A stretch of 35,205 nt of DNA from positions 1-35,205 of the forward strand of contig CAMEIH010000030.1 of the NCBI GenBank assembly GCA_945917985.1, written 5' to 3'. Each line of letters begins with the position of its first letter. Within the stretch, counting starts at the first letter, position 1. Below are positions 10,905 through 35,205 of the stretch, piece after piece. The notes under the pieces are model-generated. The model was given only the letters and a program-made list of their open reading frames with translations. It ran no database searches and was not told the origin of the DNA. Origin of the DNA: an uncultured Clostridium sp. (lineage in GTDB: Bacteria > Bacillota > Clostridia > Lachnospirales > Lachnospiraceae). The position numbers and the translations under genes are program-made.

Positions 10905-10982
10905 GGGGATTTGCGTAGAAAATGCACTTGAACAAACGGGGATTTGCGTAGAAAACGCGTTTACATGAATGGGGATTTGCGT
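10905..10982 (+). repeat. Three 12-bp repeats at exact 33-bp period
   Basis: GGGGATTTGCGT occurs at 10905-10916, 10938-10949 and 10971-10982, each start exactly 33 bp apart (about three helical turns). The first two copies continue identically through AGAAAA. The third copy fills most of the spacer between the -35 and -10 boxes of the DUF4143 promoter. Phased sites that enter a core promoter suggest cooperative binding by a repressor. Bases 10813-10904 are AT-rich and contain nothing else I can name. Confidence 0.8.
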
Positions 10983-10988
10983 TATACT
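10960..10988 (+). promoter_or_regulatory. Promoter of the DUF4143 ATPase gene
   Basis: TTTACA (10960-10965) and TATACT (10983-10988) are 17 bp apart. The third 33-bp-phased repeat (10971-10982) lies in the spacer and abuts the -10 box. Transcription would start near 10995, so the mRNA leader would be short, about 17 nt. Confidence 0.65.
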
Positions 10989-11011
10989 CTTTTTGAAAGG
11001 TGGTAATAAAT

Positions 11012-16654: not shown

Positions 16655-17518
16655 ATGGCAGAATATGATAGTTTGAAATCAAAGCAGGAGAGGTACGAAA
16701 AACAGAAAAAACTGAAGGAAGCTTATTATCGTCTGACAGCTCCCGTACATGTAACTTTAAATTCCTATAAGGAACATGAGCGCATCGAAGGCTATTATGA
16801 GTTTAAGGATTACGGAAGGATATTTCAATGTGACAGGCTTTTGAAGCTGGAGACCATCTATGGGAAAGTACAGATGGGCTACAATCCCAATCGTGGAAGA
16901 AGCTTTGTATTTGCCAATATGAAAACCAACCTGTATGATACGGTCAATTCCCGTTATCAGAAGATTATGAAGGAATATCAGCAAAAACCGGAGCAGAAGA
17001 AGGGAAACGAAAACAGGGCTTATGTGTCCGCCAGATGGAAGAATGCTGCCATATTATTGGAAAAGGCAGAGAATAAACCATGGTCTGAGAAATCCATGCA
17101 GCCATATTTCCATAATGCGAACATGGATGCAATTCTAAAAACCATGCCCTTTTTTTTTAAGGAGCAGGAAAGGGAGCAGCTCCGCGGAAACGCAGAGCAG
17201 ATAAAGAGGCTGCAGGAAGGCGTAAGGCAGAATGCTTTGCAGGGAAAAAGGCAGGAAAGCGGCAGCTTAAATGAACAGATGAGAGAGCTTCAGGAAGAAA
17301 GCAATATGCTGCAGGCGATTCTCTACAGAAAGGACAGCGGAAGGAGAGGCTTCATCAGAAAACTCAATTATGCCTTTGATATCGAGAAGCATGAAATGTT
17401 TGATTATTACAGACAGCAGAGATTAAGAGCCATGAAAGAAGAGGTAGAAGCAATCGAAGCCGGTGCTGACAGTGAAGGCGGCGATTCTTCAGAAGAAAAG
17501 AAAAATGACAAGCAATAA
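16655..17518 (+). CDS. Unrecognised charged, coiled-coil protein
   Basis: I do not recognise this 287-residue protein. It has no signal peptide or membrane segment. Residues 20-110 look like a folded domain (YRLTAPVHVTLNSYKEHERI, then GYYEFKDYGRIFQCDRLLKL). Residues about 165-225 are strongly charged and helical, a probable coiled coil (EQEREQLRGNAEQIKRLQEG and a second run of Glu/Gln/Leu). The C-terminus is acidic and disordered. The gene lies between the LAL regulator (25-nt gap) and the AAA+ ATPase (13-nt gap), so it is probably co-transcribed with the ATPase and may act with it. No clear ribosome site is seen at the best distance from ATG 16655; GGAAGGG is about 14 nt upstream. Confidence 0.7.
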   Translation: MAEYDSLKSKQERYEKQKKLKEAYYRLTAPVHVTLNSYKEHERIEGYYEFKDYGRIFQCDRLLKLETIYGKVQMGYNPNRGRSFVFANMKTNLYDTVNSRYQKIMKEYQQKPEQKKGNENRAYVSARWKNAAILLEKAENKPWSEKSMQPYFHNANMDAILKTMPFFFKEQEREQLRGNAEQIKRLQEGVRQNALQGKRQESGSLNEQMRELQEESNMLQAILYRKDSGRRGFIRKLNYAFDIEKHEMFDYYRQQRLRAMKEEVEAIEAGADSEGGDSSEEKKNDKQ

Positions 17519-17531
17519 AAGAGGTTAAGGA

Positions 17532-19307
17532 ATGGACAAAAAGAAAGTCATTACAGAGTTCACATACCAAAATACATACAGTGACAGAAATTATCTGGAG
17601 GAAGTCAGCCGGTTGCTTGGATGGTCTTTGCAGGAAACGGAATTGGCGAAGAAACTGTTAAAAGGACCTTTGTCCCTTGAAGCAATCGGGAAGGAAGAAT
17701 GGGAGAATTTGTCCCCTGCCTTTGGGCATACAGAAAAGGAGATTTATCTGTATCCCGTGGTTGCCGGGTATATAGCGGGAGAACTGCCTGATGCGGAATA
17801 CGGCACCTTGCCGGCGGGAATCAAATTGCTGTTTCCTTCTGCCGAAAAGCTTTACGGAGACAGCGAAATCGTGGAGGAAATGGTTTCCCTGTTTGGTAAT
17901 GTAAAGGAGGCACAAAAGGAAGAGTCATTTGCCTATGTACTGGTAGAAAACGGCAGAAGCGGGGCTCGTTTCCTTGCAGGCCAGGCAGCATACAGACTGG
18001 GGATGCCGCTTCTTGTCTGGGATGGGGAACAGCCCCATTGGCAGGAGCTTCTGCTGACAGCGGTTTTATATGATGCTTTGATTTGCGTGGATGCAAGAAA
18101 CTTAAGAAGCGGCCGAGAAGTCTTTTGCAAGCGCATGGAACAGCTCTCCGAACGTGTCATGAGATTTGTGATATTGCTGGAGAACAGGGAAGACGCGGGA
18201 GATTTATGCAGAAGGGTAAAGAGCATCTATCAGATGCTTCCGGTGACGGTCAGGGCTGACCGGGAAGCCTGCCTTCAGGATTACGAGGAAAACAGTGGAA
18301 TCTCCATACCGGAAAAGGTGCACAGAAGACTGGAGGATGGTCAGTACACTATGGATTCCGTGAAGCGGGTGCTCTGCGAGTTTACCGCCCGGGCACAGCT
18401 TGTGGGAGAAGGCGCATTGACAGAAAGCGCTGCAGAGCAGATCGTGGAATATTATGATGAAAAAGAAAAGGGATTGTTCGGAATCAGCCAGCTTACGACA
18501 AACCGCCGGCTGGTCGATTTGTGTTTGCCCGCAGAGCATCACCGCAAGCTTGCTTCCGTCTGTGCCATGCTTAAAAAACGGGATAAGGTCATGAGAGAAT
18601 GGGGGTTTTCCGACAAGTACAGCTATGGGAACGGGATTTCCCTGCTTTTCTACGGGGCACCCGGTACAGGTAAGACCATGGCGGCACAGGCCATTGCGGG
18701 AGAACTGGGCATGCCCTTATATCGTGTGGATTTATCCCAGTTAATCAGCAAATATATCGGCGAAACCCAGAAGAACATCGGTAAGGTCTTTGAGCAGGCC
18801 GGGCAGCTAAAAGGCATTTTATTGTTTGACGAGGCGGATGCTCTGTTTGCAAGGCGAAATGAAGTGAACGATGCACAGGATAAATATTCCAATGCGGAAA
18901 CAGCATATTTGTTACAGAGAATCGAGGAGTGGGACGGCATCTGCATCCTTGCTACGAATCTTCTGCAGAATTTTGACGAGGCATTCCGCAGAAGAATCAC
19001 CTATATGCTGAATTTTCCAATGCCGGATGAAGAAGTCAGGGAGAGACTGTGGCAGAAGGTGTTTCCAAAGCAGGCAAGCGTGTCGGAGGATATGGATACC
19101 TCGGTTCTGGCTGAAAATTTCGAGCTGTCGGGAGCAGCCATCAGGAATGCTGCCCTGCAGGGAGCCTATCTGGCGGCTGTGGAGGAGACGGACATCGGTA
19201 TGAGGCATGTCCTTGGCGGTATTGCCAATGAGTATCGCAAGCTGAATAAGAACATGAAGCCGGAGCAGAAGGCGCTGCTTCAGAAATATGACGCCGAAGA
19301 GACATAA
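17532..19307 (+). CDS. AAA+ ATPase, eCIS-type (Afp15-like)
   Basis: This 591-residue protein has a C-terminal AAA+ module: Walker A GAPGTGKT at 375-382, Walker B LLFDEAD with the DEAD box at 433-436, a sensor-1-like ILATNLLQNFDEAF, and the arginine pair in FRRRITYMLNFPMPDEE. The N-terminal ~340 residues look like a helical region plus a degenerate ATPase-like fold without a P-loop. The line DKYSNAETAYLLQRIEEW is close to the one in AAA+ ATPases of extracellular contractile injection systems (Afp15 group), which act in particle assembly. That assignment follows from family memory and needs a search. It is encoded just before the two giant surface proteins, behind GAGG at 17521-17524. Confidence 0.82.
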   Translation: MDKKKVITEFTYQNTYSDRNYLEEVSRLLGWSLQETELAKKLLKGPLSLEAIGKEEWENLSPAFGHTEKEIYLYPVVAGYIAGELPDAEYGTLPAGIKLLFPSAEKLYGDSEIVEEMVSLFGNVKEAQKEESFAYVLVENGRSGARFLAGQAAYRLGMPLLVWDGEQPHWQELLLTAVLYDALICVDARNLRSGREVFCKRMEQLSERVMRFVILLENREDAGDLCRRVKSIYQMLPVTVRADREACLQDYEENSGISIPEKVHRRLEDGQYTMDSVKRVLCEFTARAQLVGEGALTESAAEQIVEYYDEKEKGLFGISQLTTNRRLVDLCLPAEHHRKLASVCAMLKKRDKVMREWGFSDKYSYGNGISLLFYGAPGTGKTMAAQAIAGELGMPLYRVDLSQLISKYIGETQKNIGKVFEQAGQLKGILLFDEADALFARRNEVNDAQDKYSNAETAYLLQRIEEWDGICILATNLLQNFDEAFRRRITYMLNFPMPDEEVRERLWQKVFPKQASVSEDMDTSVLAENFELSGAAIRNAALQGAYLAAVEETDIGMRHVLGGIANEYRKLNKNMKPEQKALLQKYDAEET

Positions 19308-19360
19308 CTACCCTAAAGAGTGGTGACCGAAAGAAAAGCCGATGCTATGATACATCATAG
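19307..19360 (+). promoter_or_regulatory. Leader element, copy 1
   Basis: This element shares blocks ACTACCC, GAGTGGTG, ATGCTA and ATACAT, in the same order and at identical spacing, with 25269-25321. ACTACCC (19307-19313) can pair with GAGTGGT (19318-19324; one C-A mismatch and one G-U) over a UAAA loop. A second hairpin, CTATGA-TACA-TCATAG, spans 19345-19360. It does not match a riboswitch I know. The remaining bases to 19427 contain an AT-rich segment, a weak possible promoter (TTTTTA at 19385, TATAAG at 19408) and the ribosome site AGGAGAGGG. Confidence 0.55.
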
Positions 19361-19427
19361 AATCGCAATTTTGGCGTTCACAAATTTTTAGCCTGCACAC
19401 AGGAATATATAAGACAGGAGAGGGAAC

Positions 19428-22400
19428 ATGAGCCTGTATTTAAAAGACAAAAACGATGAATTACAGAATAGAGAGAAGGGGCCGAAGAATGTAGAGAGAA
19501 GAAAATGGAAGGAAGCCCCCGGGTATACCTCCAGAATCCTTTCTGCATTGGGAGTACTCTGCGTTTTGGCAGTGATCGTAGGTATAGCTGCCTATATGCC
19601 CATATTGTCGAAAGCGGAAACAGGAACTAATCTGCCTCCATTACCTACTAAGTGGGGAGAAACTTCTTTACCGCTCTATCAATTCAATCAATTCTCAGAG
19701 ACTGTAAAATTGGAAGATTTGACGTTTCTGAACGCTACGTACGATGAAGGAAATAATTTAGTAGTCGAGGCTGCCATTACAACTGAGGAACAGTTAAAGG
19801 CGGTTCTGTCTGGGTTGAAAACATCGGGAACTGCGAAAGATGAAAGTGGTAATACCACACCAATTACAAGAACTGATAAAGTTATATTCAAGCTGACCAA
19901 GGATATGACAATAACCGACTGGATACTGGATGGAACTGATAACACGTTTGCAATGGATGTTTTTGACGGTCAGGGGCATACCATCACATGTACCTATACG
20001 GATAGCTTTAAGAAGGAAGAGCGTGGAATTTATAGTTCAAATGGGGAATTGGCATATGGGCTGCTTTTTGGCAAGGTTTCTGATGCAGCAACCGTACGGA
20101 ATCTCCAGGTGAGTATAATAAATAATAAATTAGTCTTTAAATTTTCTTCTAACGCTGGTTACGCTGGAGCTTTTATCGGCTTGGGCGGCGTGTGTGGCGT
20201 TGCTGATAATGCGGTTTTTTCAGATATTGAGATATCCGGTACAAGGGAAGTGGTAAACGCACAGTCTTACTGTATAGAAAATCGTAATTACGGAGTGGGT
20301 GGCTTGGTTGGAATCGTTCGGTCAAATGTTTCGATTACAAGGTGTAAAGACGATTCTGTGATAAAATCTTCTTTCGACAGATTTAACACAGGAGATGCTG
20401 ATCCTGTTTGTACAACAGGTGGTATTGTCGGACAGATATCAGGCTCCGCCAACATCATTCATGCATGCTGGGGAAATGGTGATTATGAGAGTGATGTTGG
20501 TCGCAACGGAATCAGCAAGCTCATTGCATGCGGAACAATAGTCGGGGATGTGCAATCAGCAGGAGCAGTTACGATAGAGGATTGTGCAGGTAGGGACGAT
20601 ATGGGAATGATTGCTGCTGTACATTCAAGTGCTGAAGAAAATAAGAGAATAACTGTTAGCAATTGTTATGGTAAAACACCCTATACCTTTGAAAAATATG
20701 AGTATTATATAGACGGCAAAGTCCATCATATCGTTCATGGAACGGAGCTTACTTCATCTTTATCTGAAAAAAGGGAAAGAATTAATACTACTGACTGGGG
20801 ATATGATGAAAACACTGCTCAACATTATCTGCTGCACCCGACATATAATAATTGCTGGGTCAATGTTGAAAGCCTCAATATGGGAGATCCGCTTGGTGAG
20901 GAGCATAAGATAACTATCACAGGTACGGTTAGTCTTAGTGATTCTGCGTATAGTAAGATTGCCTTTCCTGATGATGCGAAGGTTTATCTTTATATGACAA
21001 CCAACGGAACAGATGATCCAATGCTATCGCCGGCTCACTCAGGATTTGCACTGGGGACAAGTCAAAACGCAGAACATGAAATTATGCTTTCTACATCAAC
21101 TAATTATACGGACACTAGTCAGAAACTGACCGTTCGTGTACGGATAAAAGTAGTATTTAATGAGAGCACAAACGAGACTGTAAGTAATGCGGAAACTGTA
21201 TGGTGGAGCTCTCTTTATGAAAAGGAGTATGAGGCGAGTGATCTGTATATAGAAAAGCCGACTTTGCAGGCTTCCATAGAAAATCAGCCCTATGAGAACT
21301 TTCAGGACACAACTGCTTATCCGCTGGGAACAACTACGCTGCAGTTGCAGGGAAATGGTTCAACGGAATACAAAATGTACTATGATTTTAGAGATCGTTC
21401 CGGTCTGGTATTGGGAGAGACGGATTCCGAAAGTACCATTAAATGGGAGACCATGGCCCAGAAGAAACTATATGATGGTTCTTTTACCCTGAAAGAAGAT
21501 ATGGTGCTGAGTACGTCCTCCAATAAAGTGTATATGTATGTTCTGGCCTATATCAAAAAGGACAACATGGATTATTACAAGCTGTATGAGTATGATATTG
21601 TGGTATTTGCCAAGGATAAATTGATTTCTGCTACCCGGGACAGCGGAAGCAAAATACCCAATGGAAGTACTGTCACATTCAAGGTTGGAAATGGCATAGC
21701 AAACCAGTATCCCTACGATAAGATGAATGTATTGATCAGCGGGGAGGAGAAACAGTACAGTACTTTGGAGGGACAAAACGGGGTAATGACATACGCTGGC
21801 GATGTATATAAGAAAGGATCCGGCACGAATGAAGATCCCTGGTATTTGACGGTTGATCTGACGTTGACGGGAAAGCCGGGACAGACCTTTTATGTCTATG
21901 TCGAGCCATGTATAAATGAGACGGAGGATTATCAAAGTAAATATGGCAGGTTTGTTTTGAAATATACCTACACGATTATGGATAAGGCAACAGGACTGAC
22001 GCTTTCGCCCTCAACCATTACGATGGCACAGTCCGGGGCACCAACCGGAATTCCCATCAATGAAAAGGTTTATATGAACTCAGGGGGAAACAGTGACATC
22101 ATCGTTTATCGGCAGACAAATAAAGTGATAACGCCTGTTATAGTAACGGATGCTGATGCATTGGGGCAGAATGAAAACACATATTTTCGGGATAATGTTA
22201 ATAAGAAGTTTTACATACGCTGCAACGATCTGTGGTACTCCATCGATGATGCGGATGGAAATCTGAAGGTATATACGGATACAGGTGTATCTTTTGATGC
22301 TTCCTATGCTGGCAAAACAGCTTATATTTCTACCGTACTGTTTTTGACAGGTTATGATCCTTCGGACAACTGGATATATAAATATAAGGTGAATGAGCAG

Positions 22401-25265
22401 GATGCGGTGGCAGCGCCCACGGCACTTATGCCGGATGGTAGCAGTATCAGTATGGGTAAGGTGCTCAATTTCAACTGTGCGCAGAATTGTGTCATGTATT
22501 ATACAACGGATGGCACTGACCCTGTGGTAAAAGTGGATCCGAATACGAAAGCAATTGGGACTGAACAGGGGACCTTTTACTATGATCCGGCGAAGGGAAT
22601 TGAGGTTACCACAGAAAACGGCTTTTCCTACGGAACCAACATACTCATTAAGATTGTGGCATACCCGGTAGTTTATGATTCGGAAGGCGGATTTTGCTAT
22701 AACAGTGATAAAAAGAACAGCGACATCGCTACTTTTACCTATACGATTAAGGAACAAAATCAGGTGGAAACACCCATAGCGTTTCCGGAGACGAGCACGG
22801 GAAATGTGGCGGTGGTGGTGAAAGGCAACAGTATTACGCTGAGCTGTGCTACTCCCGGAGCAGAGATTTACTATACGGTAAATGGAGGCACTCCTTCCAC
22901 AGCAAGCGATCAATATACAGGTGCCATTACAGTGGACGGCGATTACGGAAGCTATTTTACCGTCAGGGCAATTGCCCACAAGGAAGGAATGAAGGACAGT
23001 GAGGTAGCCACCCTCCTGTACAAAATAGCCGAGAAGAATACGATAAGCACAGTGACGGCGATTCCTTCTACAAACAATCAGGTGATTGCAGGAGATAAGA
23101 TTATTCTCTCAACCACAGAATCCGGCGCGGATATCTATTATACAACAGACGGAACAACTCCGGATGTGGTGGAGAATGAGAATGGTACCTATACCTTAAG
23201 TGAGGGGGTACAAAAATACGATCCGGCAGAGGCTGTCAAGGTGCCCGAGGGAAGCGGTTATTTTGTAATCCATGCCATAGCTGTCAAAGCCGAAATGGCC
23301 AATAGCCCGGTGGCACAGTTTATTTATACTTACGTCGATTCGGTGGGAGCGCCTTACGGAAATCCGTCTTCGGGAACAGTAACCGAGAATACGGAGGTTG
23401 CCTTGCGGTGTGCAAATGAGGATGCGATTATCTATTATGAAATTGCATATGGCGGTGAGGAACCGGATGAACCCACCACAAGCAGTGCGGTATTTAGCGA
23501 GAAAGCACCGATTATCATTACACGTGATACAAAGATCAAGGCATTTGCCTTTTACAACAGAGAATCCTCTGAGATTGTGACACTCAGCTATACCCTGGCG
23601 CAGAAGATGGATGCACCCACATCCTCTGTCAGCAGCGGTGCGATTGTTCCGTCAGGTACGACGGTGAGTCTGTCATCAAACGGCGGTAAAGTGTACTATA
23701 CAACCGATGGTTCCGATCCGCTGGATGGCACCAACACAGCGGTGAATATCGGATCCGATGTGGTTATCACAGGTAAGGCGGGAGACAAAATCATCATAAA
23801 GGCATGCACCAGGGAAACCGGGGCAACAACCAGCGATATGGTGACGTTTACTTATCAGATCAGCCAGTACCCGGGCGGAGTGACAACAGATACCGCAGCC
23901 GGTTCTACCCTGGCAGGAGGAACATCGATCTATCTGATGACTGATGTGACGGGAGGAACGATTTATTATACGACCGGTTCAGGCAGTCCGATAACAGCAG
24001 GGACAGCAGGGAACAGCGTTGCGCTTAGCGGCAAGGCCGGATCGAATATCACGGTAAAGGCAGTGGCGATTGCACCGAATACCACCATGACAGGAAGCTA
24101 TGCATCCTTTGATTATAAGCTGATGGAGCAGCTGGCAGCACCAAATGCATCGCTTAAGGACGGAACCAGACTGACGGGGAAGGCCAGTGTTGTACTGAAA
24201 GCGAATAAGGGAAAGATATACTTTACCATTGACGGTACAGAGCCTACCAAGGCAAGCAATGAATATACAGCGCCCATTGTGGTTTCCAAGGCGATGACCA
24301 TTAAGGCAATTGCGATTGAAGAGGGCAGTGAGAACAGTGATGTGAGTACATTCTCTTATACCTTTGCGGAAAAGGTTAAAAATATCACATCCTCCGTTCC
24401 CACAGAAACTGTGGTGCAGTCAGGAGAGGTAGTGAAACTGAACTGTGCCACAAAGAATGCCAGAATTTACTATACCACAGACGGCACAGATCCTTCCGGG
24501 AATGCGGAGGAAGGCGTATTTGTCTACGATGAAAAAGAAGGGATCAGTATTTACCGCAGCGTAAATATTAAGGCTGTCGCTGTCAGTGATGATTTGTGCG
24601 ACAGTGAGATTCTTTCTTTAAATTACCGGGTGGAAGAAGTGCCGGTAGAAATAGAAAGAGAGAAAGCGGCAAAGGAAGAAGAGGAGGCAGGCTTAAAGCC
24701 CTCCGATCTCACGAAGCTGGAAAGCAGGCGGGTACAGCCGAACGAGGAAGAAGTATCCGACGGATATGTGCAGATCAGCGATTTCCTCAGCGATGTCACG
24801 GTACGGGGAAAACGGTCTGTGATCTCTGAAGAGACTACCCTTAGAGGAACGGAAATAGCAGTATCTGATAATGCCAAAAAGGAAATCAGGAGCCTTTTGG
24901 GCGATGACTATGAACTGATATGTAATTACAGCTTTGCGCTATATGAGGACGGGGAGCGGATCAGGCCGGAGGGACTGTTTGAAATAGGGATTCCGATTCC
25001 GGAAGAATATGAAAATGCTGATGTGACCATTGTTTCCATCAATGAGAATGATGGCATAAAGACATACACTACCAGACGGGAAAACGGTTATGCGTATGCG
25101 GAGGCTTCTTACCTGAACAGCTTTGCGATTGTGGGCGCAAAGATAGAAAAAGACAGTCATAATGAGTGGAACCTTGCGCTGATCATGTCAGTGGTGGCAG
25201 GAGCACTTGTGCTTGTGGGTGCTTCCATGATAACCGTTACGGTGATCAGACGAAAGAGGTATTAA
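19428..25265 (+). CDS. Giant surface protein with chitobiase C-terminal-like repeats (paralogue 1)
   Basis: This 1945-residue protein is predicted to be exported and membrane-held at both ends. Residues 1-36 are basic, and 37-60 are hydrophobic (signal peptide or anchor). About 80-470 resemble a beta-helix with GLUG-like segments (GGLVGIVRSN, GGIVGQISGS). From about residue 1000 there are at least eight repeats with the CHB_HEX_C-like signature IYYTTDGTDP, each followed by a TIKAIAV-type strand. A Glu/Lys linker (about 1735-1765) precedes a folded domain, then a membrane segment at about 1917-1940 and the tail RRKRY. No LPxTG sorting signal is present. It is preceded by the leader element and AGGAGAGGG, and followed by its paralogue. 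Adhesion or glycan binding is possible; the repeat family alone does not prove it. Confidence 0.8.
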   Translation: MSLYLKDKNDELQNREKGPKNVERRKWKEAPGYTSRILSALGVLCVLAVIVGIAAYMPILSKAETGTNLPPLPTKWGETSLPLYQFNQFSETVKLEDLTFLNATYDEGNNLVVEAAITTEEQLKAVLSGLKTSGTAKDESGNTTPITRTDKVIFKLTKDMTITDWILDGTDNTFAMDVFDGQGHTITCTYTDSFKKEERGIYSSNGELAYGLLFGKVSDAATVRNLQVSIINNKLVFKFSSNAGYAGAFIGLGGVCGVADNAVFSDIEISGTREVVNAQSYCIENRNYGVGGLVGIVRSNVSITRCKDDSVIKSSFDRFNTGDADPVCTTGGIVGQISGSANIIHACWGNGDYESDVGRNGISKLIACGTIVGDVQSAGAVTIEDCAGRDDMGMIAAVHSSAEENKRITVSNCYGKTPYTFEKYEYYIDGKVHHIVHGTELTSSLSEKRERINTTDWGYDENTAQHYLLHPTYNNCWVNVESLNMGDPLGEEHKITITGTVSLSDSAYSKIAFPDDAKVYLYMTTNGTDDPMLSPAHSGFALGTSQNAEHEIMLSTSTNYTDTSQKLTVRVRIKVVFNESTNETVSNAETVWWSSLYEKEYEASDLYIEKPTLQASIENQPYENFQDTTAYPLGTTTLQLQGNGSTEYKMYYDFRDRSGLVLGETDSESTIKWETMAQKKLYDGSFTLKEDMVLSTSSNKVYMYVLAYIKKDNMDYYKLYEYDIVVFAKDKLISATRDSGSKIPNGSTVTFKVGNGIANQYPYDKMNVLISGEEKQYSTLEGQNGVMTYAGDVYKKGSGTNEDPWYLTVDLTLTGKPGQTFYVYVEPCINETEDYQSKYGRFVLKYTYTIMDKATGLTLSPSTITMAQSGAPTGIPINEKVYMNSGGNSDIIVYRQTNKVITPVIVTDADALGQNENTYFRDNVNKKFYIRCNDLWYSIDDADGNLKVYTDTGVSFDASYAGKTAYISTVLFLTGYDPSDNWIYKYKVNEQDAVAAPTALMPDGSSISMGKVLNFNCAQNCVMYYTTDGTDPVVKVDPNTKAIGTEQGTFYYDPAKGIEVTTENGFSYGTNILIKIVAYPVVYDSEGGFCYNSDKKNSDIATFTYTIKEQNQVETPIAFPETSTGNVAVVVKGNSITLSCATPGAEIYYTVNGGTPSTASDQYTGAITVDGDYGSYFTVRAIAHKEGMKDSEVATLLYKIAEKNTISTVTAIPSTNNQVIAGDKIILSTTESGADIYYTTDGTTPDVVENENGTYTLSEGVQKYDPAEAVKVPEGSGYFVIHAIAVKAEMANSPVAQFIYTYVDSVGAPYGNPSSGTVTENTEVALRCANEDAIIYYEIAYGGEEPDEPTTSSAVFSEKAPIIITRDTKIKAFAFYNRESSEIVTLSYTLAQKMDAPTSSVSSGAIVPSGTTVSLSSNGGKVYYTTDGSDPLDGTNTAVNIGSDVVITGKAGDKIIIKACTRETGATTSDMVTFTYQISQYPGGVTTDTAAGSTLAGGTSIYLMTDVTGGTIYYTTGSGSPITAGTAGNSVALSGKAGSNITVKAVAIAPNTTMTGSYASFDYKLMEQLAAPNASLKDGTRLTGKASVVLKANKGKIYFTIDGTEPTKASNEYTAPIVVSKAMTIKAIAIEEGSENSDVSTFSYTFAEKVKNITSSVPTETVVQSGEVVKLNCATKNARIYYTTDGTDPSGNAEEGVFVYDEKEGISIYRSVNIKAVAVSDDLCDSEILSLNYRVEEVPVEIEREKAAKEEEEAGLKPSDLTKLESRRVQPNEEEVSDGYVQISDFLSDVTVRGKRSVISEETTLRGTEIAVSDNAKKEIRSLLGDDYELICNYSFALYEDGERIRPEGLFEIGIPIPEEYENADVTIVSINENDGIKTYTTRRENGYAYAEASYLNSFAIVGAKIEKDSHNEWNLALIMSVVAGALVLVGASMITVTVIRRKRY

Positions 25266-25268
25266 AAG

Positions 25269-25321
25269 ACTACCCGTTGGAGTGGTGCTGATCAGAACAG
25301 GAAATGCTAGTATACATTATA
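25269..25321 (+). promoter_or_regulatory. Leader element, copy 2
   Basis: Blocks ACTACCC (25269-25275), GAGTGGTG (25280-25287), ATGCTA (25304-25309) and ATACAT (25312-25317) match the leader of the previous gene with no gaps. The first hairpin keeps its stem, but its loop is GUUG in place of UAAA, as expected if structure is what matters. The element ends about 15 nt before the start codon of the second giant gene and overlaps its ribosome site region (GAGGAG), so control of translation is possible. Confidence 0.55.
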
Positions 25322-25336
25322 TGAGGAGTCTGCGAC

Positions 25337-28300: not shown

Positions 28301-29092
28301 ACGACAGACGGGCAGATCCCCGACCTGAACAATCCGAAGAATCTGTATATCTACAGCGGTGCCATTACGCTGAATAAGCCGGTTAATATCAAGGCGATGG
28401 CGGTAAAGGACAGAATGACAAATTCTGAGGTGTCCGGTGCGATTTACACAGTAAAGGAACCGGAGATCATTGTTGTGGATGAGGAACCGGAAGAGGAGGA
28501 GAAGCAAAAGAGCGGAAATCGTCTGATGAGCCGCAGAGCTTATATGGATGAAATGGGAGGTCCGGCCTACAGCGATTTTGTGTTGAAGAGTGCTGCTACG
28601 GGAGTGGTGTTATCTGCGGAAGAAGGAGCGATACCTGTAGACTCAAAGATAAAAGTGGAGGAAACTGCTGTCGACACCGCATTGAATTATGCAATTGAAA
28701 GCAGTGTGGGTAAGGAGTATGGAGCGATAGCAAACTATGAGGTTTCACTTTTGAACGGTACAGAAGAACTGCAGCCGGCAGGAGATGTGGAGATAGGCCT
28801 CCCTGTCCCGTCTCAGTATCAGAACAATACCATTTCCGTTGCGTATGTGAATGAAGACGGCAATGTGGAGACCTTTGAAACCCGCAGAGATAATGAAATG
28901 GTATATGCCCATATAACGCATTTCGGCCGCTATTGCATCGTGGCTCCGGTGAATCTGGAAGAGGAGGAGACGCAGCCTGATATCGTGAAGATGATCCGTA
29001 TCGTGGCAGTGGTTTTATTGGCGGCAGGGTATGTTCTGTTGCGACTGGGAAGAAAAAAGAATAAAGAAGAACATTCTATTTTGGATGACTAA
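25337..29092 (+). CDS. Giant surface protein with chitobiase C-terminal-like repeats (paralogue 2)
   Basis: This 1251-residue paralogue has the same plan as the previous gene product. A very basic N-terminus (1-33) precedes a hydrophobic segment at 34-59. At least nine CHB_HEX_C-like repeats follow, for example ILYTTDGSSP, IYYTLDGTAP, IYYTLDGSEP and IYYTTDGQIP. An acidic linker (VVDEEPEEEEKQKS) and a membrane-proximal domain come next, similar to that of paralogue 1 (GIPIP/GLPVP and TYTTRRENG/TFETRRDNE). A membrane segment at about 1219-1237 is followed by a charged cytoplasmic tail. It lacks the GLUG-like N-terminal region of paralogue 1, and no LPxTG is present. The start is ATG 25337, behind GAGGAG. 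Gene duplication including the leader is the simplest origin. Confidence 0.8.
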   Translation: MLVNDDKKGRKKRKDYQRAMAKKKSRSRAGRRWLPVGAGGLLSVAAVVLMAVGVISFTVRSDSLILVTNDSDTEFQANTTIKVMDGAQVSVEGYTDESVANGEEIYYKFYDTALTDTSSLDLSSNGTRYVPGEIITLNRSSAEDGTRYLYIQRKSGEESVIFSYIIEFCEKLGSIASYPETSDSDMTSVKVGDTITFSNDESATMYYTDDGTPLSFVRDPDGEIKINGERFRPGSDQMKTLNDDNASIVPEDWLANGTRTIRVISYKEGYDFSTVCIFRFKISQDQAQAPTIKPATTAENPVTVNSGTSVTLSTSTQDGVILYTTNGRTPGYTVGQDGGTYQIVTNSDTEKYTGPFAITGKPGEEIIITAVTVKISTSSGASLMTDSDPVQFVYNITPLETAFPPEVSPESGTELALSSRIYLNTPTSDGVILYTTDGSSPDYAIEQPEGGGEYQIVGKGTTKVYGSDTSYIVADEDSGARHGQTFLIQAKTVQIEKATGEKLLEDSAVRQFSFKISDADKVAAPEAIPKTKEESPTVVKEGDKIMLSCTTAGAKIYYTLDGTAPLIKEDGSLSGSTKLYTGAIVVPQGTGFFTITAMARKDGMNDSSTVRFNYQYPGTVAPPYVTPAEGTISINTEVTLASLDTKAQIYYTLDGSEPTQTTGRLYSEPMLLTQDTVIKAICVVDGISSAVRTFTFKVAPELLPPTPSIQSGAVVTSGTTINLTAQQGAQIFYTVDGSSPKEDKAMAGSTVTLTGKAGDAITLITYAKGSDFSDSQTATYVYTISNYENGIKVNPEAGSRVKEGDVISLETDVTNGTIYYAVGGDNPESSGISGTEVMVGDSGGETKFTLKATVVSVGSAFTGAIGSYVYEYMEKPVAPKASVPNGAVLLQEQNIVLTAESGDIYYTLDETEPDSKSDIYTEPIHITQAATIKAITVSKEGAESDVATFAYTFAEQTVAPVFSIKSGEVESGTMLTITSDTPGAVIYYTTDGQIPDLNNPKNLYIYSGAITLNKPVNIKAMAVKDRMTNSEVSGAIYTVKEPEIIVVDEEPEEEEKQKSGNRLMSRRAYMDEMGGPAYSDFVLKSAATGVVLSAEEGAIPVDSKIKVEETAVDTALNYAIESSVGKEYGAIANYEVSLLNGTEELQPAGDVEIGLPVPSQYQNNTISVAYVNEDGNVETFETRRDNEMVYAHITHFGRYCIVAPVNLEEEETQPDIVKMIRIVAVVLLAAGYVLLRLGRKKNKEEHSILDD

Positions 29093-29113
29093 AAATGAAG
29101 GAAGGGGTATCCG

Positions 29114-30898
29114 ATGAACAACCGTAAATTTTATTCTTATGAAAGAAATAATTATTATTATGGCAAGCTGCTGACCTCCAGGGATTTTCAGGTAGAGCAA
29201 TCCTATATCAATGATAAGCGGCGGCTGACAAACCGTCTGTTTTGTGGAAGCGGTATTGTGTCAGGTCTGAAAGTAGTTGAGGCTGACGACACAGCCATCG
29301 TTCTTCAGTCGGGATGTGCGATTGACGGAGCAGGAAGAGAGATTGTGGTTCCCGAGACTGCCGTAGTGAAGCTTGCGACCATCGACGGAAGCAGGAATTT
29401 ACATACGGATGTGGCATACTTAAGCATTTCTTATACGGAAAGCAAGGAAGATAAGGTCTATGCCGTTATGGGCAATGCCGTAAATGAGAAGGCAGAGGAC
29501 GGCGAATATAATCATATCAGGGAAGGATATTGTCTCAGTCTTTCGGATGCCGAAGAATGTGTGCCGGTAAAGGAACTGAAGGACGATTATCTAATCAGAA
29601 CGGTTCTGTATGAGGATGAGGATTACAAAATTTTCCAGGAAGTAGCGGGATATCTTCCCAAAGAATGCAATTTGGCAGTGAAGCTGATTGTTTATAAGAA
29701 GCGCCAGACCACGGATCTTTTATCGGTGCGCTATGCGGTAAGCATAGAGGGAATCAGCGAACAGAGTTTTCCCATTAAACTGGAAAATCTGAAAATGGAT
29801 CGTTATGAGACAAGATGCGTCACGGAGACTATCGTTCCAAAGGATGAGATACGGTTTCTGGCAGATGTTAAGCTTCGAATGGACCATCTGGAAATTTTGA
29901 AGGATAAGAAAAAATGTCAGGTGAAGGAGCCGGCACCCATAACCGTTACCATGTCAGACAAAAACCTGGTGTCATTGATTGTGGAAAACAGTTATAAGAC
30001 GGCAATGGATGTAGAGATTGAAGAGAACTATGACAATAAGATATATCTTGCAAAATTGTATCTGATTCGTTCCGGCGAGCGGATACTGCTGGATCGTATC
30101 GAAGAGGTACCCTTTAAGCAGTATGTTTATTCCGCATCACAGATCATGCTGTTAGAGGAATTAAAGGAATATTATCCAGAAACAGGAAAAACCGAAAGAG
30201 AGTTTAGGACGGTGTCCGGAGAAATACAGCATACAGGCACTAAGGAACAGACCGGTGAGAAAAAGAATTTTGTCACAGGTGCATTTGATCTAGCCATCGG
30301 AAATGCCGGAGAGATCGGTAAAACTTTTTATTCCGAGGAAATCATGCATGGACTGGGAGAAGGACCGGTGTATGTGGAAATTGCTTATGAATTCTTAAAT
30401 AAAGAGAACGGCAGTATGAAGGAAGAGATACTGTTTGGTGACGGTGAATTGTTTGCTTCGGGAGAAGCGGAAGAAAAACAAATGCAGATAGCCTGTGCGG
30501 TCAAGGTCCTTCCGGAAAGAGGCACCTTCATTGTGGCCGTGCGTCCGAAGAATAAAATGGTTCGGACAAGTCTGCGTGTCCGCTGGTATGCATGCAGGGC
30601 AGAGGATACCGGAAAGAACATCAGCAAGCTGAAAGAGAAACAGGGAATGATCATGATCTCTCCCGATACAATTACTACAACGCCAAAGGGCATCGTGCAG
30701 ATCCAGCCCAAGTTCGTCAACATGCCTTCCGAGGCCTGCAACTATGAGGTTATAGATCAGGCAGGAGGTAAGATAGACAATAACGGCATCTATACGGCAC
30801 CTACGGCAGAGGGCGTGTATGAAGTAAAGGTTTCCTGTATCAGTGCACCGGAGATTTTTGCACACGCATATATTATTGTATCTGCGGAAAAGAAGTAG
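29114..30898 (+). CDS. Protein resembling eCIS-associated baseplate-region proteins
   Basis: This 594-residue protein has no signal peptide or membrane segment. The N-terminus (about 1-80) contains YYYGKLLTSRDFQVEQSYIN, then NRLFCGSGIVSGLKV and CAIDGAGREIVVP. I associate this pattern with uncharacterised proteins encoded beside contractile injection system baseplate genes. It would fit a particle or adaptor component, but no biochemical role can be read. The middle (about 190-510) is unrecognised. The last ~75 residues look like an Ig-like domain (GGKIDNNGIYTAPTAEGVYE). It is preceded by GGAAGGGG and lies 21 nt after the second giant gene, so it is likely in the same transcript. Lack of an export signal means it would be cytoplasmic unless released or loaded by another machine. 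Confidence 0.68.
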   Translation: MNNRKFYSYERNNYYYGKLLTSRDFQVEQSYINDKRRLTNRLFCGSGIVSGLKVVEADDTAIVLQSGCAIDGAGREIVVPETAVVKLATIDGSRNLHTDVAYLSISYTESKEDKVYAVMGNAVNEKAEDGEYNHIREGYCLSLSDAEECVPVKELKDDYLIRTVLYEDEDYKIFQEVAGYLPKECNLAVKLIVYKKRQTTDLLSVRYAVSIEGISEQSFPIKLENLKMDRYETRCVTETIVPKDEIRFLADVKLRMDHLEILKDKKKCQVKEPAPITVTMSDKNLVSLIVENSYKTAMDVEIEENYDNKIYLAKLYLIRSGERILLDRIEEVPFKQYVYSASQIMLLEELKEYYPETGKTEREFRTVSGEIQHTGTKEQTGEKKNFVTGAFDLAIGNAGEIGKTFYSEEIMHGLGEGPVYVEIAYEFLNKENGSMKEEILFGDGELFASGEAEEKQMQIACAVKVLPERGTFIVAVRPKNKMVRTSLRVRWYACRAEDTGKNISKLKEKQGMIMISPDTITTTPKGIVQIQPKFVNMPSEACNYEVIDQAGGKIDNNGIYTAPTAEGVYEVKVSCISAPEIFAHAYIIVSAEKK

Positions 30899-30917
30899 AA
30901 ATAAAGACGGAAATTAG

Positions 30918-31820
30918 GTGAATCAAGTGATACCTGCTCTGAATATGCATCTGGAGGATGTAAGGGTTGTTTTAAAAAATGAAGTAAATGATATTACCGT
31001 CTGCAGGGATATGAAAGAGAGAGGACAGCAGTTTTATACAATGGTATCTGTGAAGAGTGACAGATATCGAAAGTATATAACCGAGCAGATGAATCTGGGT
31101 AAAATGTTTGCCCACTGTAAGGATTTCATAGGTTCCTTCAGCATCGGCAAAGAACTGAAGCTGCTGTTTCGGTATGAAAACGAGAATCTGATCGACAATG
31201 TGGGAAGCATTTATCTGTATGATTTTGCCAGATGCCGGGAGGCAGCCATTCATTTGGTGAGTATTCTCGCTGAGACAGGTGTTTCCGGACAGGTATGTAA
31301 GCTGCTCCTGAATTCGAGAAACATAAATGTTGACAGTGAGTGCGGCGTGACACTGAATTATTTTCTGGATTTTCAGGATTATGACATGGAGGACCAGTCA
31401 TTCAATGATATGGACTGCATTGCAGAGGCGGTGTTTGGCATTCTGGAACGTCCCTTTAAAGAAAAGCTGAATGGTGAAATACAGAATTATCCGGATGAGC
31501 TGAGACTTTTTTGGATGAAGATGCAGAATCATTCTTTCTTTTCCTATGGACAGATCGTGGCGCAGCTTCGGTCAATGCCGAATAAGCCCATTGCGAAAAT
31601 GGGAGCTGTATGGAAGATCCGTAAATGGTTCCGCACGATACGTTCCGTGCTTTTCAGAAATCCCGCCAGAATTTTACTCACGGTTTTGGTAATAGTCACG
31701 GTTGTCTATGCTTCGTGGCAGATCTATACGAGAATAAGAGTGCGGCGGGCGTATGATCAGAATATTTCTTACAGTGCTTTGGAATATATCGGTTCGGTAT
31801 ATCTGGGGGACGAAGAATAA
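30918..31820 (+). CDS. Single-pass membrane protein of unknown function
   Basis: I do not recognise this protein (300 residues from GTG 30918; GTG 30927 behind AGGTG is equally possible). Residues 1-245 are predicted cytoplasmic and soluble. Residues 251-269 form a membrane segment (LLTVLVIVTVVYASWQIY), and about 30 residues lie beyond it. The soluble part alternates strands and helices and contains LLNSRNINVDSECGVTLNYF followed by DFQDYDMED. This is loosely like the C-lobe of a degenerate protein kinase, as in pseudokinase membrane proteins such as EssB, but no catalytic motif is clear. Encoded between the 29114-30898 protein and the cyclase-like protein, it may link cytoplasmic and membrane parts. 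Confidence 0.65.
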   Translation: MNQVIPALNMHLEDVRVVLKNEVNDITVCRDMKERGQQFYTMVSVKSDRYRKYITEQMNLGKMFAHCKDFIGSFSIGKELKLLFRYENENLIDNVGSIYLYDFARCREAAIHLVSILAETGVSGQVCKLLLNSRNINVDSECGVTLNYFLDFQDYDMEDQSFNDMDCIAEAVFGILERPFKEKLNGEIQNYPDELRLFWMKMQNHSFFSYGQIVAQLRSMPNKPIAKMGAVWKIRKWFRTIRSVLFRNPARILLTVLVIVTVVYASWQIYTRIRVRRAYDQNISYSALEYIGSVYLGDEE

Positions 31821-31837
31821 GAGAATGGAAAGAACTC

Positions 31838-34531
31838 ATGAAAAATTTGAAGCGTAATCTTATAATATTAGCACTGATCGGACTTGTAACAGTTGCCTTT
31901 GTTAAAACCTATAATGACAGAAAAATACCCATAGACCGAATTTACACTGTCAGTGCAGCCGGCAGCGGAAAGACACTTGTTACATGGTATGGCGAGGATG
32001 AAATAACAGCTGCCATCATAGACAGGGAAGGGAAAATCGGGAAATCGGTAGAACTTCCTTTGGAGAAGGATGGAAAAACCTATGCAGTGGAGGCTGCCTG
32101 TGCAGGAGAAGACGGCAAAGTATATCTGCTTCTTAGTGCCTGCGAAAGCATCAGTGGCGAGAACCTGACAAAGGATTTGTATATCTATGATTTCAATAAA
32201 ATATTTCCGTCAAAGACGATAATTTCCACAGATGATCTTCAATCGCAGCAAAGTGATGATCCGAACGAGGTTGTGGATTCATGGGACTTTAAGTGGATGA
32301 GCATCTCCGGAAGCGCATTATCCATGATAGGAGTCAACAGTGATTCCACAAGGGCAGTGAGAAAGGTATTTGAATTCGGAGCAGTAACAGAGAGAAGCCT
32401 CAATGTGAAATCCGAGAGAGTGTATCCGCTTTCAGAGGGGGAAGGCGTTTATCAGGCCATAGGAAACGGTACGGATATTGCGTATGTATCCAATTCCGGA
32501 AAGCTGTTTTATGCGACTGAGACCGAGGTAAAAGAGGTATATCCGGCCAGAGAGGTAGAAGTGCTGATGTATCCCCTCTATCTGTCCTATGCGGAGACCG
32601 GCTTTGTGTATCTTCAGGACGCAGAATCGGGAAACATCCTGAAGCTGAATCTTATGGATGGAACCGAGGAGGTTGTGATGAAAGGAACTGCTGCTTTCTC
32701 TGCGGCAGAAACCATCACACCGAAAGAAATATGCATGATGTCTAGGACTAATTTAAGCAATTTTTCGGCGGTAATTAAGGACAACTTAGGCAAAGGCTAT
32801 CAGCTTCTCATATTGCAGGAGAGATCCGGTTATGTGATTCAGGAAATGACGCAGCCCTTGAGCCGGCTGGTGATCGCGTTTTTCAAATATCTGATATTGT
32901 ATCTGGCTACAGCGGCTGCCGTGGTGCTTATACTCTACGGATTGTTCCGGGGCATTACAAAGGGCAGAACGATCATGGGCAAGCTGATGCTGGCTGCTTT
33001 GCCTCTGCTTATTTTGGCAATGTCTGTGTTCGGAATCGTTGCTTACAGCTATTACAGTGATTCTGTCCGCAAAAGCTATGAGAAACAGACAGAGGATGAG
33101 GGCAACATGATGACGGCTCTGTTCGGGCAGGAATCCTTTAACGCTTTGGAATATCCTTACGATTACAGCAGTGAAAACTATAGATATTTGCAGAATCAGA
33201 TAGAAGGAAGAGACTTGTATTCCAGGGTCATCTATTACGAGGATGGTGAGCTTTATACAGGTGTGGATAAGAATACACCCTGTTTCTATCCCATTGGAAT
33301 CAAGGTGAATTCGCAGCTGGATTCCATATATAGAAAAGCAGCGATGTCAGGTGAAACAGTGACAGAGACCATACAGGACAGGGCAGGAAAGAGGATTGTC
33401 AGCGTGACGCCCATAGGCGGATCCTCAGGCCGAAGCGTATATCTTTATGAGGCAGGGGTGTTTACGGCTGTTCTGGATGAATACCAGAGTTCATATATTA
33501 AGAGCTTTGTTGGTGTCTGTATCGCTTTTCTGATTGTGGTTTCTGTTTTGCTGACGGCAATGTTTTTGCAGATTTTGCAGCCGTTGTCGGAAATCAGAGA
33601 AGGAATGGAGAAATTTACCCGTGGTAACCGTGATATCCGCATCGAGCCGGAGACAACAGACGAGCTTGCAGGTATCTGCCAGGCATTTAATGAGATGGCA
33701 GATGACATAGACCTTCAGATTATGAATCTTCAGAATCTGAGTGATACTTATTATCGTTTTATGCCGCTTGGCATGATCGGAATATTGGGAAAGGATAACT
33801 TGGGGAATCTCACCCTTGGCTCCCAGATTCAGGGAAGCTACGCAGTTCTTTCCGTTCAGATGACGAACACGGAGGAAGGTCTTTCCTTCCGTGACAGAGA
33901 AGAGAAAATTAATCGTTTCTTCAATCTGATTAACACGCAGGCTGTGAAGCAGAATGCAATTCCTATTGTGGATAGTGCAAATCTCTCCGGTATGCTGTTG
34001 ATATGCAGGGATGGTGTGGTTTCTGCCATCCGTACCGCACTGACTATTTTGGCCGGTGTAGATGCCTATAATGCGGGCATAGAGGAAACCAAGCGGCTGG
34101 ATATTATGTTCCTGCTGCACCGCTCTGATATTTTCGTTGGTGTTTGCGGAGATAAAGAGCACTATATTCCGGTACTGATCACACCGGAATTGGAAAATAT
34201 ACTTCAAAGCAGCAGCACTTTCAAAAAGACAGGTGCACGTCTGCTGGTAACAGGACAGGCATACAGTGAACTGGAAACGGGAACTGAGTTCGAGAGCCGT
34301 TATATCGGTAATCTTGAGGTAGAAGAAAGCAGGAATGGCTTTTACGAATTCTATGATGATCGTGATGCGGAGGAAGCGCATCTGCTCAAGATCACGGACA
34401 GCAATTTCCGCAAGGCCATGAAGCTTTTCGAACAGGGATATCTGTATGAAGCAAAGAATCTGTTCGCCCTTGTATTGCAGGATAATCCGGGCGATATGGT
34501 TGCCAGATATTATATTTTCCGTTGTGAATGA
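31838..34531 (+). CDS. Four-pass HAMP protein with degenerate class III cyclase-like domain
   Basis: This 897-residue membrane protein starts with a membrane segment (8-26). An external region (about 30-340) follows, possibly a propeller. Further membrane segments lie at about 345-367, 378-406 and 552-579, with a Cache-like sensor region at about 410-545. A HAMP linker follows (about 580-632: ILQPLSEIREGMEKFTRGNR). The cytoplasmic domain starts YYRFMPLGMIGILGKDNL, as in class III adenylate cyclases. However, the usual metal-binding strand (VLFxDIRGFT) is VLSVQMTN here, with no Asp, so catalysis is doubtful. The chain ends in a TPR-like tail (FRKAMKLFEQGYLYEAKNLF), also known from cyclase-family proteins. 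It is probably a signalling receptor that kept the fold as a binding module. It starts 17 nt after the previous gene, behind GGAAAG. Confidence 0.75.
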   Translation: MKNLKRNLIILALIGLVTVAFVKTYNDRKIPIDRIYTVSAAGSGKTLVTWYGEDEITAAIIDREGKIGKSVELPLEKDGKTYAVEAACAGEDGKVYLLLSACESISGENLTKDLYIYDFNKIFPSKTIISTDDLQSQQSDDPNEVVDSWDFKWMSISGSALSMIGVNSDSTRAVRKVFEFGAVTERSLNVKSERVYPLSEGEGVYQAIGNGTDIAYVSNSGKLFYATETEVKEVYPAREVEVLMYPLYLSYAETGFVYLQDAESGNILKLNLMDGTEEVVMKGTAAFSAAETITPKEICMMSRTNLSNFSAVIKDNLGKGYQLLILQERSGYVIQEMTQPLSRLVIAFFKYLILYLATAAAVVLILYGLFRGITKGRTIMGKLMLAALPLLILAMSVFGIVAYSYYSDSVRKSYEKQTEDEGNMMTALFGQESFNALEYPYDYSSENYRYLQNQIEGRDLYSRVIYYEDGELYTGVDKNTPCFYPIGIKVNSQLDSIYRKAAMSGETVTETIQDRAGKRIVSVTPIGGSSGRSVYLYEAGVFTAVLDEYQSSYIKSFVGVCIAFLIVVSVLLTAMFLQILQPLSEIREGMEKFTRGNRDIRIEPETTDELAGICQAFNEMADDIDLQIMNLQNLSDTYYRFMPLGMIGILGKDNLGNLTLGSQIQGSYAVLSVQMTNTEEGLSFRDREEKINRFFNLINTQAVKQNAIPIVDSANLSGMLLICRDGVVSAIRTALTILAGVDAYNAGIEETKRLDIMFLLHRSDIFVGVCGDKEHYIPVLITPELENILQSSSTFKKTGARLLVTGQAYSELETGTEFESRYIGNLEVEESRNGFYEFYDDRDAEEAHLLKITDSNFRKAMKLFEQGYLYEAKNLFALVLQDNPGDMVARYYIFRCE

Positions 34532-34562
34532 ATTGACTTAAGGCCTTAGGGAGTATTACTCA

Positions 34563-35205
34563 ATGCAGTATATAGCAAAATTAATAAGGGCAGTTATTTC
34601 AAGACTGAGGGCTCTCACACTGAATCCGGTTAGGAATTTCCTGCGGCGGATTCAGATGATGTTTAACACCAATGTGATCGCCAATAGGGTTTTGAAACCT
34701 GTCACGAAGAAATTCAGAGAGCTGTTTCATATAAAACCGAAATCGGAAGATGACTATTTTTCCGTAGGAAGGTTTTTAGTAGCAAAAAAACTGGTTGCTG
34801 CCGTAATTGTAGTTTGTTGCATCGCAGTAATTGTGTACTTTAACTTTATTGCAGAACCTGTAGAGAAGCCGGTAACTACCACAACCGGCATCACCACAAA
34901 TGTCTATTTCGACTATGATGACATTGCACTGACGGAATATACAGGAAAAGCAAATATCAGAGCCGCCAACGGCAGCGTGGTTTACACCGGGGATATTAAG
35001 AACGGTGTCTGCGAAGGAACGGGTATTTTGCATAATCAAAGCGGCGTTTTGGTTTATGAAGGAGATTTCTCTAATAATTCCTTTAACGGACATGGAAAGG
35101 AATATGCAAAGGATGGAAGTCTTCAGTATGAGGGGGAGTATACGGACAACGCTTATAACGGACAGGGTACATTATTTTATCCGTCAGGGCAGATTCAGTA
35201 TACCG
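34563..35205 (+). CDS. MORN-repeat membrane protein (truncated by window edge)
   Basis: The frame is open from ATG 34563 to the end of the window (214 codons), with TAGGGAGT just upstream. Residues 1-70 are basic and helical (cytoplasmic). A membrane segment lies at 77-96 (LVAAVIVVCCIAVIVYFN), followed by a Thr-rich stretch. From about residue 125 MORN-like repeats run on: VYTGDIKNGVCEGTGIL, VYEGDFSNNSFNGHGKEY and QYEGEYTDNAYNGQGTLF. By the positive-inside rule the repeats would lie outside the membrane. MORN repeats usually bind membranes or proteins; the role here is unknown. The gap to the upstream gene (31 nt) contains the palindrome TAAGGCCTTA. The real C-terminus lies beyond the window. 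Confidence 0.82.
   Translation, partial: MQYIAKLIRAVISRLRALTLNPVRNFLRRIQMMFNTNVIANRVLKPVTKKFRELFHIKPKSEDDYFSVGRFLVAKKLVAAVIVVCCIAVIVYFNFIAEPVEKPVTTTTGITTNVYFDYDDIALTEYTGKANIRAANGSVVYTGDIKNGVCEGTGILHNQSGVLVYEGDFSNNSFNGHGKEYAKDGSLQYEGEYTDNAYNGQGTLFYPSGQIQYT

Follow-up and report, generated by a model that had tools for sequence, protein, structure and literature searches.

Every contractile injection system (CIS) studied binds a membrane before it fires, whether through a complex of the type VI secretion system (T6SS) kind, through fibres, through an extension of the baseplate or with help from CisA (PMC12237407; this and the other PMC articles are cited from excerpts). How cells with a single membrane (monoderms) use such particles is open: those of Streptomyces are cytoplasmic, and those of haloarchaea are membrane-docked. 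The haloarchaeal Cis11 is reported to be closest to Bacillota (PMC11566945). Common in Bacillota is the eBAP3 protein type, with a 200-amino-acid (aa) N-terminal domain that possibly docks on Tail_P2_I and resembles TssK; such proteins are catalogued as target-binding tail fibres, some with bacterial Ig folds (PMC12923769, 2026). Here we analyse contig CAMEIH010000030.1 (C30 below) of an uncultured Clostridium sp. that is a relative of gut Lachnospiraceae, assembly GCA_945917985.1, a stretch of 35,205 nucleotides that we call the window. Its gene content identifies it as the front end of a predicted phage-tail-like injection machine with a gene set of the extracellular CIS (eCIS) type. Genes for membrane proteins stand directly behind its probable baseplate adaptor, and we think it rather probable that the machine works docked to the cytoplasmic membrane of the cell that makes it.

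Membrane-protein genes accompany the baseplate adaptor

Eight genes on the + strand, spaced by 13, 120, 71, 21, 19, 17 and 31 bases, fill positions 16655-35205 of the window:

16655..17518, +, first gene of the cluster, 287-aa protein of unassigned function
17532..19307, +, AAA+ ATPase (AAA1; PF00004, 7.3e-28)
19428..25265, +, CHB1, 1945 aa, chitobiase C-terminal-type repeats (PF13290, 6.2e-68, six stretches)
25337..29092, +, CHB2, 1251 aa, chitobiase C-terminal-type repeats (PF13290, 7.3e-76, seven stretches)
29114..30898, +, probable baseplate adaptor, the YYGKLLTxRDF protein (NF053767, 6.2e-23)
30918..31820, +, single-pass membrane protein, one transmembrane segment (TM) at 244
31838..34531, +, HAMP receptor, four hydrophobic segments, degenerate class III cyclase-like domain (HAMP, 1.2e-9)
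34563..35205, +, MORN membrane protein, N-terminal 214 aa, TM at 78 (MORN, 4.4e-11)

Relatives were sampled twice. One sample holds the best 80 of 558 loci, picked by adaptor similarity and so leaning to the window's relatives; the other holds 299 genomes of the same family. The profiles behind the counts derive in part from those same 80 loci. By title, 46 of the 80 loci are Lachnospiraceae, the others being Oscillospiraceae, Ruthenibacterium, Lachnoclostridium, Agathobaculum, Herbivorax and more; many come from animal guts, and two are titled as apparently cultured strains.

Downstream of the adaptor, the single-pass gene was found in 75/75 loci with at least 1 kb of following sequence, the HAMP receptor gene in 63/63 with at least 4 kb (displaced by ~5.6 kb in L116 and L138) and the MORN gene in 61/61 with at least 5.5 kb, after 5, 17 and 19 of the 80, respectively, had been left out for short downstream sequence. 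Thirteen further relatives, which do not include the sheath-only genome G046, all have the order adaptor, single-pass, MORN. The receptor lies between the latter two in seven of them (G041, G080, G086, G149, G174, G180, G242) and was not found in the fetched stretch of four (G056, G085, G104, G176). The membrane-gene set has two positions, one ahead of the sheath genes and one behind Tail_P2_I, and in the loci with this second order (L116, L131, L138, L156; G056, G106, G242, G278) the adaptor directly follows Tail_P2_I.

The family sample gave a similar association. Adaptor matches were found in 29 of the 299 genomes (26 strong) and sheath matches in 28 (27 strong), with a strong match to both in 24. 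The single-pass protein matched in 26, of which 24 were counted, and all 24 have sheath and adaptor. This count comprises 23 genomes at E <1e-7 and G006, whose 30-residue match (2.9e-5) lies in a 36-aa open frame and starts immediately behind the adaptor; the frame is probably cut by the contig end. Not counted as strong were the adaptor matches of G138, G140 and G267 (E ~5e-4 to 9e-4) and the sheath match of G059 (8.8e-4); the single-pass matches of G250 (4.7e-4) and G297 (8.0e-7) were likewise set aside. Three of the 27 genomes with a strong sheath match have no single-pass protein, namely G233, a 3.8-kb contig, and G046 and G253, in whose fetched stretches the profiles recognised no baseplate gene. 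We take the membrane proteins to belong to the predicted injection system.

The first-pass annotation of the window had described these eight same-strand genes, the last of them truncated, as an AAA+ ATPase, a YYGKLLTxRDF protein of the kind seen beside eCIS baseplates, two giant chitobiase-repeat proteins, a cyclase-like receptor and a MORN membrane protein behind a LAL regulator, and this description stands. Its proposal that the chitobiase-repeat proteins have an anchor at each end is not established, as their N-terminal segment may be a signal peptide. Its premise that eCIS loci typically lack such a membrane set is untrue of the clostridial loci examined, where the set is the rule.

Structural genes on two further contigs

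A search of the genome with sheath profiles gave a single site, on contig C77, which opens with the remainder of the MORN gene. The two halves align to residues 1-213 and 219-563 of an intact homologue in L078, at 77% each, with a few codons missing between them. The genes on C77 follow in this order:

second part of the MORN gene
Pvc16_N cap (PF14065, 1.5e-31)
241-aa unassigned protein
PAAR-like tip, DUF4280 (PF14107, 5.5e-35)
sheath (PF04984, 1e-18; PF17482, 1.5e-17)
tube (PF06841, 1.5e-39)
123-aa protein (PHROG tail assembly chaperone, 1.4e-9)
second tube (1.5e-14)
760-aa protein
CIS_tube initiator (PF19266, 1.5e-23)
hub, GPD (PF05954, 6.4e-10)

Contig C3 carries the rest:

OB spike (PF04717, 1.7e-21)
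gp25 (PF04965, 5.2e-21)
966-aa protein in baseplate position
Baseplate_J (PF04865, 1.4e-10)
Tail_P2_I (PF09684, 1.5e-5)
589-aa protein
second AAA+ protein, 9260-11236

The eCIS features found are thus a sheath, a gp19-type tube, a CIS_tube initiator, a hub, an OB spike, a PAAR-like tip, gp25, baseplate proteins, a Pvc16/Afp16 cap and AAA+ ATPases, PF00004 being matched by both of the latter. The first-pass annotation had seen no sheath, tube or spike gene in the window and had proposed a search to the right; the outcome favours its reading, such genes being present on C77 and C3.

The order C30, C77, C3 is taken from relatives, and no overlap among the three contigs was found. One contig of G086 carries the genes CHB1 through Tail_P2_I in the same order; this stretch is without the cluster's outer genes (the 287-aa protein and AAA1 on one side, the 589-aa protein and second AAA+ on the other), and its contig ends before CHB1. 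The C77 end sequence (L007 10220-10253) recurs exactly at C79:22-55 and C106:3332-3365, which is what an assembly-breaking repeat would give. By eye, the flanks of the break between C77 and C3 (the C77 end and the start of L008, which is C3) carry a short direct repeat and inverted repeats, and the break, just after the hub gene, looks as it would around an insertion element.

Neither Pfam nor PHROG gave a match for the 966-aa protein, which does match the gene at the same position in relatives. The 589-aa protein (L008 7462-9231) shows a weak PI3/PI4-kinase similarity (1.4e-4, below cut-off) and has no relative among the 80 loci; it is a possible cargo of the system. The second AAA+ gene closes the cluster and is followed by chromate transporter genes. 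In a search of the window's own genome its product was 48% identical to AAA1 across 255 residues, and AAA+ genes were found in or near the CIS loci of relatives too.

The adaptor and the membrane proteins behind it

Residues 8-144 of the adaptor match the NCBIfam entry NF053767, 'CIS13 family contractile injection system protein', with 81.7 bits, far under the whole-protein cut-off of 370; there is no Pfam match. The protein is conserved along its whole length, with 39 invariant columns in 22 sequences, and the sole PDB match of its profile (A1) at E <=1 is All3314 (9.5e-4), the crown protein of a thylakoid-anchored CIS (tCIS). It is probably a baseplate adaptor or fibre-position protein of the eBAP3 type, which its CIS13_fam and tCIS crown similarities fit, as does its place adjoining Tail_P2_I in eight loci; its conserved C-terminal region we read as Ig-like. 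A phage origin was rejected, the adaptor having no match in 50,697 phage records. The only contig of a viral collection with a partial relative, covering the N-terminal domain, is L198 (8001-8273).

The single-pass protein consists of a ~240-aa domain predicted to be cytoplasmic, a TM and a short conserved outside tail. In all 40 aligned homologues the TM lies at about residue 240 and lysine plus arginine (K+R) is higher before it, a charge pattern that places the N-terminus inside and the C-terminus outside. In a PDB profile search kinases occupied the first 22 rows (best 5e-4), 20 of them PAK entries, with bromodomains next (from 0.17). When compared by hhalign with nine YukC/EssB sequences, the profile gave P 2e-4 (probability 46%) with the TM in register, and with 20 kinases from relatives P 1e-3 (probability 21%); among 16 control families MORN gave P 0.0013 and the other 15 gave 0.054 to 0.95. 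The protein thus appears weakly kinase- and EssB-like. PF10140 (EssB/YukC) is absent from the 14 families that the 40 homologues match at E <=0.1, and a genuine type VII YukC/EssB protein is encoded elsewhere in the genome (G000:C84:5790-6839, L178; 3.3e-97).

The layout of the single-pass protein also suggested TssL, an identity rejected for want of sequence support: no DotU/IcmF-type Pfam match was found in the 40 single-pass homologues, 29 receptor homologues or the window's other proteins, and no TssL stood among the best 60 of the 86 PDB matches. In L156 (11790-13001) the protein has a long outside tail whose end is LysM-like (E 0.0064, below cut-off), which suggests a hold on peptidoglycan.

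PDB profile matches of the HAMP receptor include adenylate cyclases (from 0.0078), and one of its 29 homologues passes the PF00211 cut-off (L113, 9.3e-9). A catalytic cyclase was rejected, the first metal-binding Asp and the later substrate residues not being kept in the alignment at what we take to be the class III positions. L116 (17299-18357) and L138 (17286-18344) have, behind the PAAR-like gene, a gene for a 353-aa cyclase-like protein that covers only the receptor's C-terminal part. For the MORN protein, with its TM at about residue 71, K+R is higher before the TM in 26/27 homologues, and the MORN repeats should therefore lie outside.

Exported proteins

CHB1 has hydrophobic segments at 37 and 1922 and CHB2 at 41 and 1216; in both, the N-terminal one could be a cleaved signal peptide. 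In many relatives a different pair was found. A ~680-aa protein follows the MORN gene in 40/54 related loci with at least 8 kb downstream, and a ~900-aa protein follows that one in 33/51 with at least 9.5 kb; an N-terminal hydrophobic segment is present in 18/19 and 16/16 aligned members, respectively, and in G242 the two are fused. The ~680-aa protein matches OEP (TolC family) in 14/19 members (best 1.2e-14), and its PDB matches are led by TolC and OprM (best 0.0026). Strong TolC-like matches occur in 13/299 genomes, all with a sheath, and weak ones in 10 more; the window's genome gave none. Omp85 had no match in 15 CIS-bearing genomes, eight of them with a strong TolC-like match, while 7/14 control genomes matched, which fits single-membrane cells.

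The two pairs exclude each other in the 54 loci: 12 have chitobiase-repeat genes upstream and no TolC-like gene, 40 the reverse, two neither and none both. Nine of the 13 further relatives have the TolC-like gene and one (G086) CHB, and neither was found in the fetched stretches of G056, G106 and G278. By this distribution the CHB pair is specific to the window's clade, and we infer that the two pairs are alternatives for the same job at the wall.

Other genes and genomic setting

The window is a whole contig, whose right end cuts the MORN gene, from a 2.9-Mb genome in 111 contigs that is 88.5% complete. The genes scanned upstream of 14250 resemble ordinary chromosomal genes: chaperonin, RelA/SpoT, metallo-beta-lactamase fold, DUF3048, SIS/GATase, radical SAM, AAA_14/DUF4143, LytTR and TetR. 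Between them and the cluster, the LuxR-type (LAL) regulator spans two overlapping frames, 14250-14840 and 14800-16629, one with the P-loop part and the other with the TPR/GerE part; these may be two genes or a single gene with a frameshift.

The 287-aa protein has no Pfam match over cut-off, no NCBIfam match and no PHROG; relatives were found in L087, L088 and L091 among the 80 loci, most of which end short of that upstream position. The best NCBIfam name for AAA1 is IteA, at 122 bits against a cut-off of 510.

A docking model and its alternatives

Docking to the producer's own membrane fits the data best because proteins anchored from the inside are tied to the baseplate adaptor. The adaptor would bind Tail_P2_I at the baseplate edge and hand it on to the single-pass protein's cytoplasmic domain; the single-pass and MORN proteins together would form the docking site. 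Where present, the HAMP receptor may sense a signal from outside or from the envelope and use its cyclase-like domain to gate firing. A passage across the wall would be lined or guided by the large exported proteins, which are CHB1 and CHB2 here and in many relatives the TolC-like protein with its partner, and the tube would be fired outward from a living cell. Outward firing is our first choice, helped by the exported proteins, though sequence alone cannot tell it from firing into the cell's own membrane, which has been proposed for Streptomyces. The membrane-attached variant raised in the first-pass annotation gains from these results, the membrane proteins being a conserved companion of the baseplate in the relatives examined; for a surface-displayed variant nothing was found in support.

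A narrower version of own-membrane docking is a trans-envelope CIS of monoderm Clostridia, with a phage-type baseplate, a kinase-like docking protein, a membrane sensor and an exported wall conduit that is TolC-like in many relatives and made of chitobiase-repeat proteins in the window's clade. We offer it as a possibility that is less likely than not.

Several observations weigh against the docking model or its parts. Attachment, docking and firing direction are all inferred from genes. The receptor lies inside the module in only seven of the 13 further relatives and elsewhere in two (G106, G278). Two of the 26 genomes with a strong adaptor match (G146, G163) have partial adaptor matches, in short open frames, and no sheath or single-pass match, their genomes being 68% and 87% complete. 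The kinase likeness has weak scores, with a MORN control at P 0.0013 in the same comparison, and no sequence match like TssL, TssM or TssJ was found. Loci with neither exported pair (two of the 54, and G056, G106 and G278) indicate that a wall conduit is not general. The cataloguing of eBAP3 proteins as tail fibres fits released particles, and an exported N-acetylmuramoyl-L-alanine amidase with DUF4214 repeats, encoded ~1.4 kb after the CIS locus of G106 (L071 15010-17211), could be a lysis gene.

These last two points would be accommodated by an ordinary extracellular CIS released by lysis, in which the adaptor is a fibre for the target cell, as the Ig folds of some Bacillota eBAP3 proteins (PMC12923769) and the eCIS-like core gene set would also allow, and the membrane proteins only regulate or accompany it. 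Yet the same single-pass and MORN proteins stand behind the adaptor in every long enough locus, and a free particle has no obvious need of membrane partners encoded beside its fibre. No holin or endolysin was recognised among the window's cluster proteins, several of which have no family match. We regard lysis release as unlikely.

A cytoplasmic, CisA-like suicide device seems to us slightly less likely again. Free particles would dock when the membrane proteins sense stress and would kill the producer by firing into its membrane. Streptomyces does encode a bitopic N-in/C-out membrane protein just after its baseplate genes (PMC12237407), the HAMP receptor would suit stress sensing, and some relatives are without any exported proteins; but several membrane proteins and large exported ones, the TolC-like protein in 40/54 loci among them, exceed the apparent needs of a kill switch. 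That an unrelated surface-protein operon merely adjoins a CIS by chance is very improbable, for although the window shows no structural gene and the CHB proteins are confined to one clade, the linkage holds in two different gene orders, and all 24 genomes counted for the single-pass protein have sheath and adaptor, counts that already contradict it.

Comparison with known systems

Open-licence literature, the scope of the search (subscription papers and preprints lay outside it), gave no description of this system, and none of it joins contractile injection with MORN; PMC10266427 (Lachnospiraceae, membrane) has the contractile injection system only in its reference list, as far as its excerpts go. 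The nearest gene set is that of the Afp/PVC-type eCIS, in the form found in Bacillota with Tail_P2_I and eBAP3 proteins, shared in sheath, tubes, CIS_tube, GPD/OB spike, gp25, baseplate J, Tail_P2_I, Pvc16, PAAR-like and AAA+ proteins, and in the CIS13_fam match of the adaptor N-terminus. The set described here differs in the membrane-protein genes behind the adaptor, of which the excerpts of the eCIS papers make no mention. Catalogued eCIS tail fibres of the Bacillota-type loci treated here may instead anchor the particle to the producer's own membrane.

Two membrane-linked systems come close in layout. The Streptomyces CisA system (PMC12237407), also of a monoderm, has a bitopic N-in/C-out membrane protein near the CIS fibre position, and such a CIS-linked protein was found here too (TM and charge pattern in 40/40, linkage in 75/75 and 13/13), the comparison being one of layout. 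Here, however, the membrane proteins are several, among them a weakly kinase-like one and often a HAMP receptor, and there are exported proteins besides. The haloarchaeal membrane-docked CIS, or 'archaeal T6SS' (PMC11566945), likewise has a putative membrane-anchor gene adjoining its cluster of eCIS-type genes, but a single protein with six predicted TM helices makes up that anchor, and no membrane protein here is so built. All3314 (PDB 7b5h) of the thylakoid-anchored CIS of Anabaena matches adaptor profile positions 18-73, a weak match of 56 positions, and docking there is by a baseplate extension (PMC12237407).

Parts of the predicted machine recall other systems. A kinase-like domain followed by one TM, which we take to be the layout of EssB, recurs in the single-pass protein, in line with the hhalign comparison; the missing PF10140 match, a different gene neighbourhood and the genuine YukC on C84 set it apart from type VII secretion. 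The extra protein of the relatives corresponds to the TolC-like proteins of monoderm Firmicutes (PMC8809574) in its OEP domain, its export signal and its occurrence in bacteria without recognised Omp85. Those are described beside efflux pumps and S-layers, whereas here they lie in CIS loci, outside the window's own genome.

From the T6SS the cluster differs in having no TssJ/TssL/TssM complex by sequence, and in its one phage-type sheath gene, with no VipA/VipB-type Pfam match in the cluster, to which the search for TssB/TssC was confined; neither AAA+ protein is recognised as ClpV, both matching PF00004 best. The membrane genes behind the adaptor in every long enough locus provide named candidates for a docking complex and make the use of CISs by monoderms a testable question. 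The trans-envelope version, if true, would give Gram-positive bacteria a counterpart of the T6SS that evolved separately from TssJLM.

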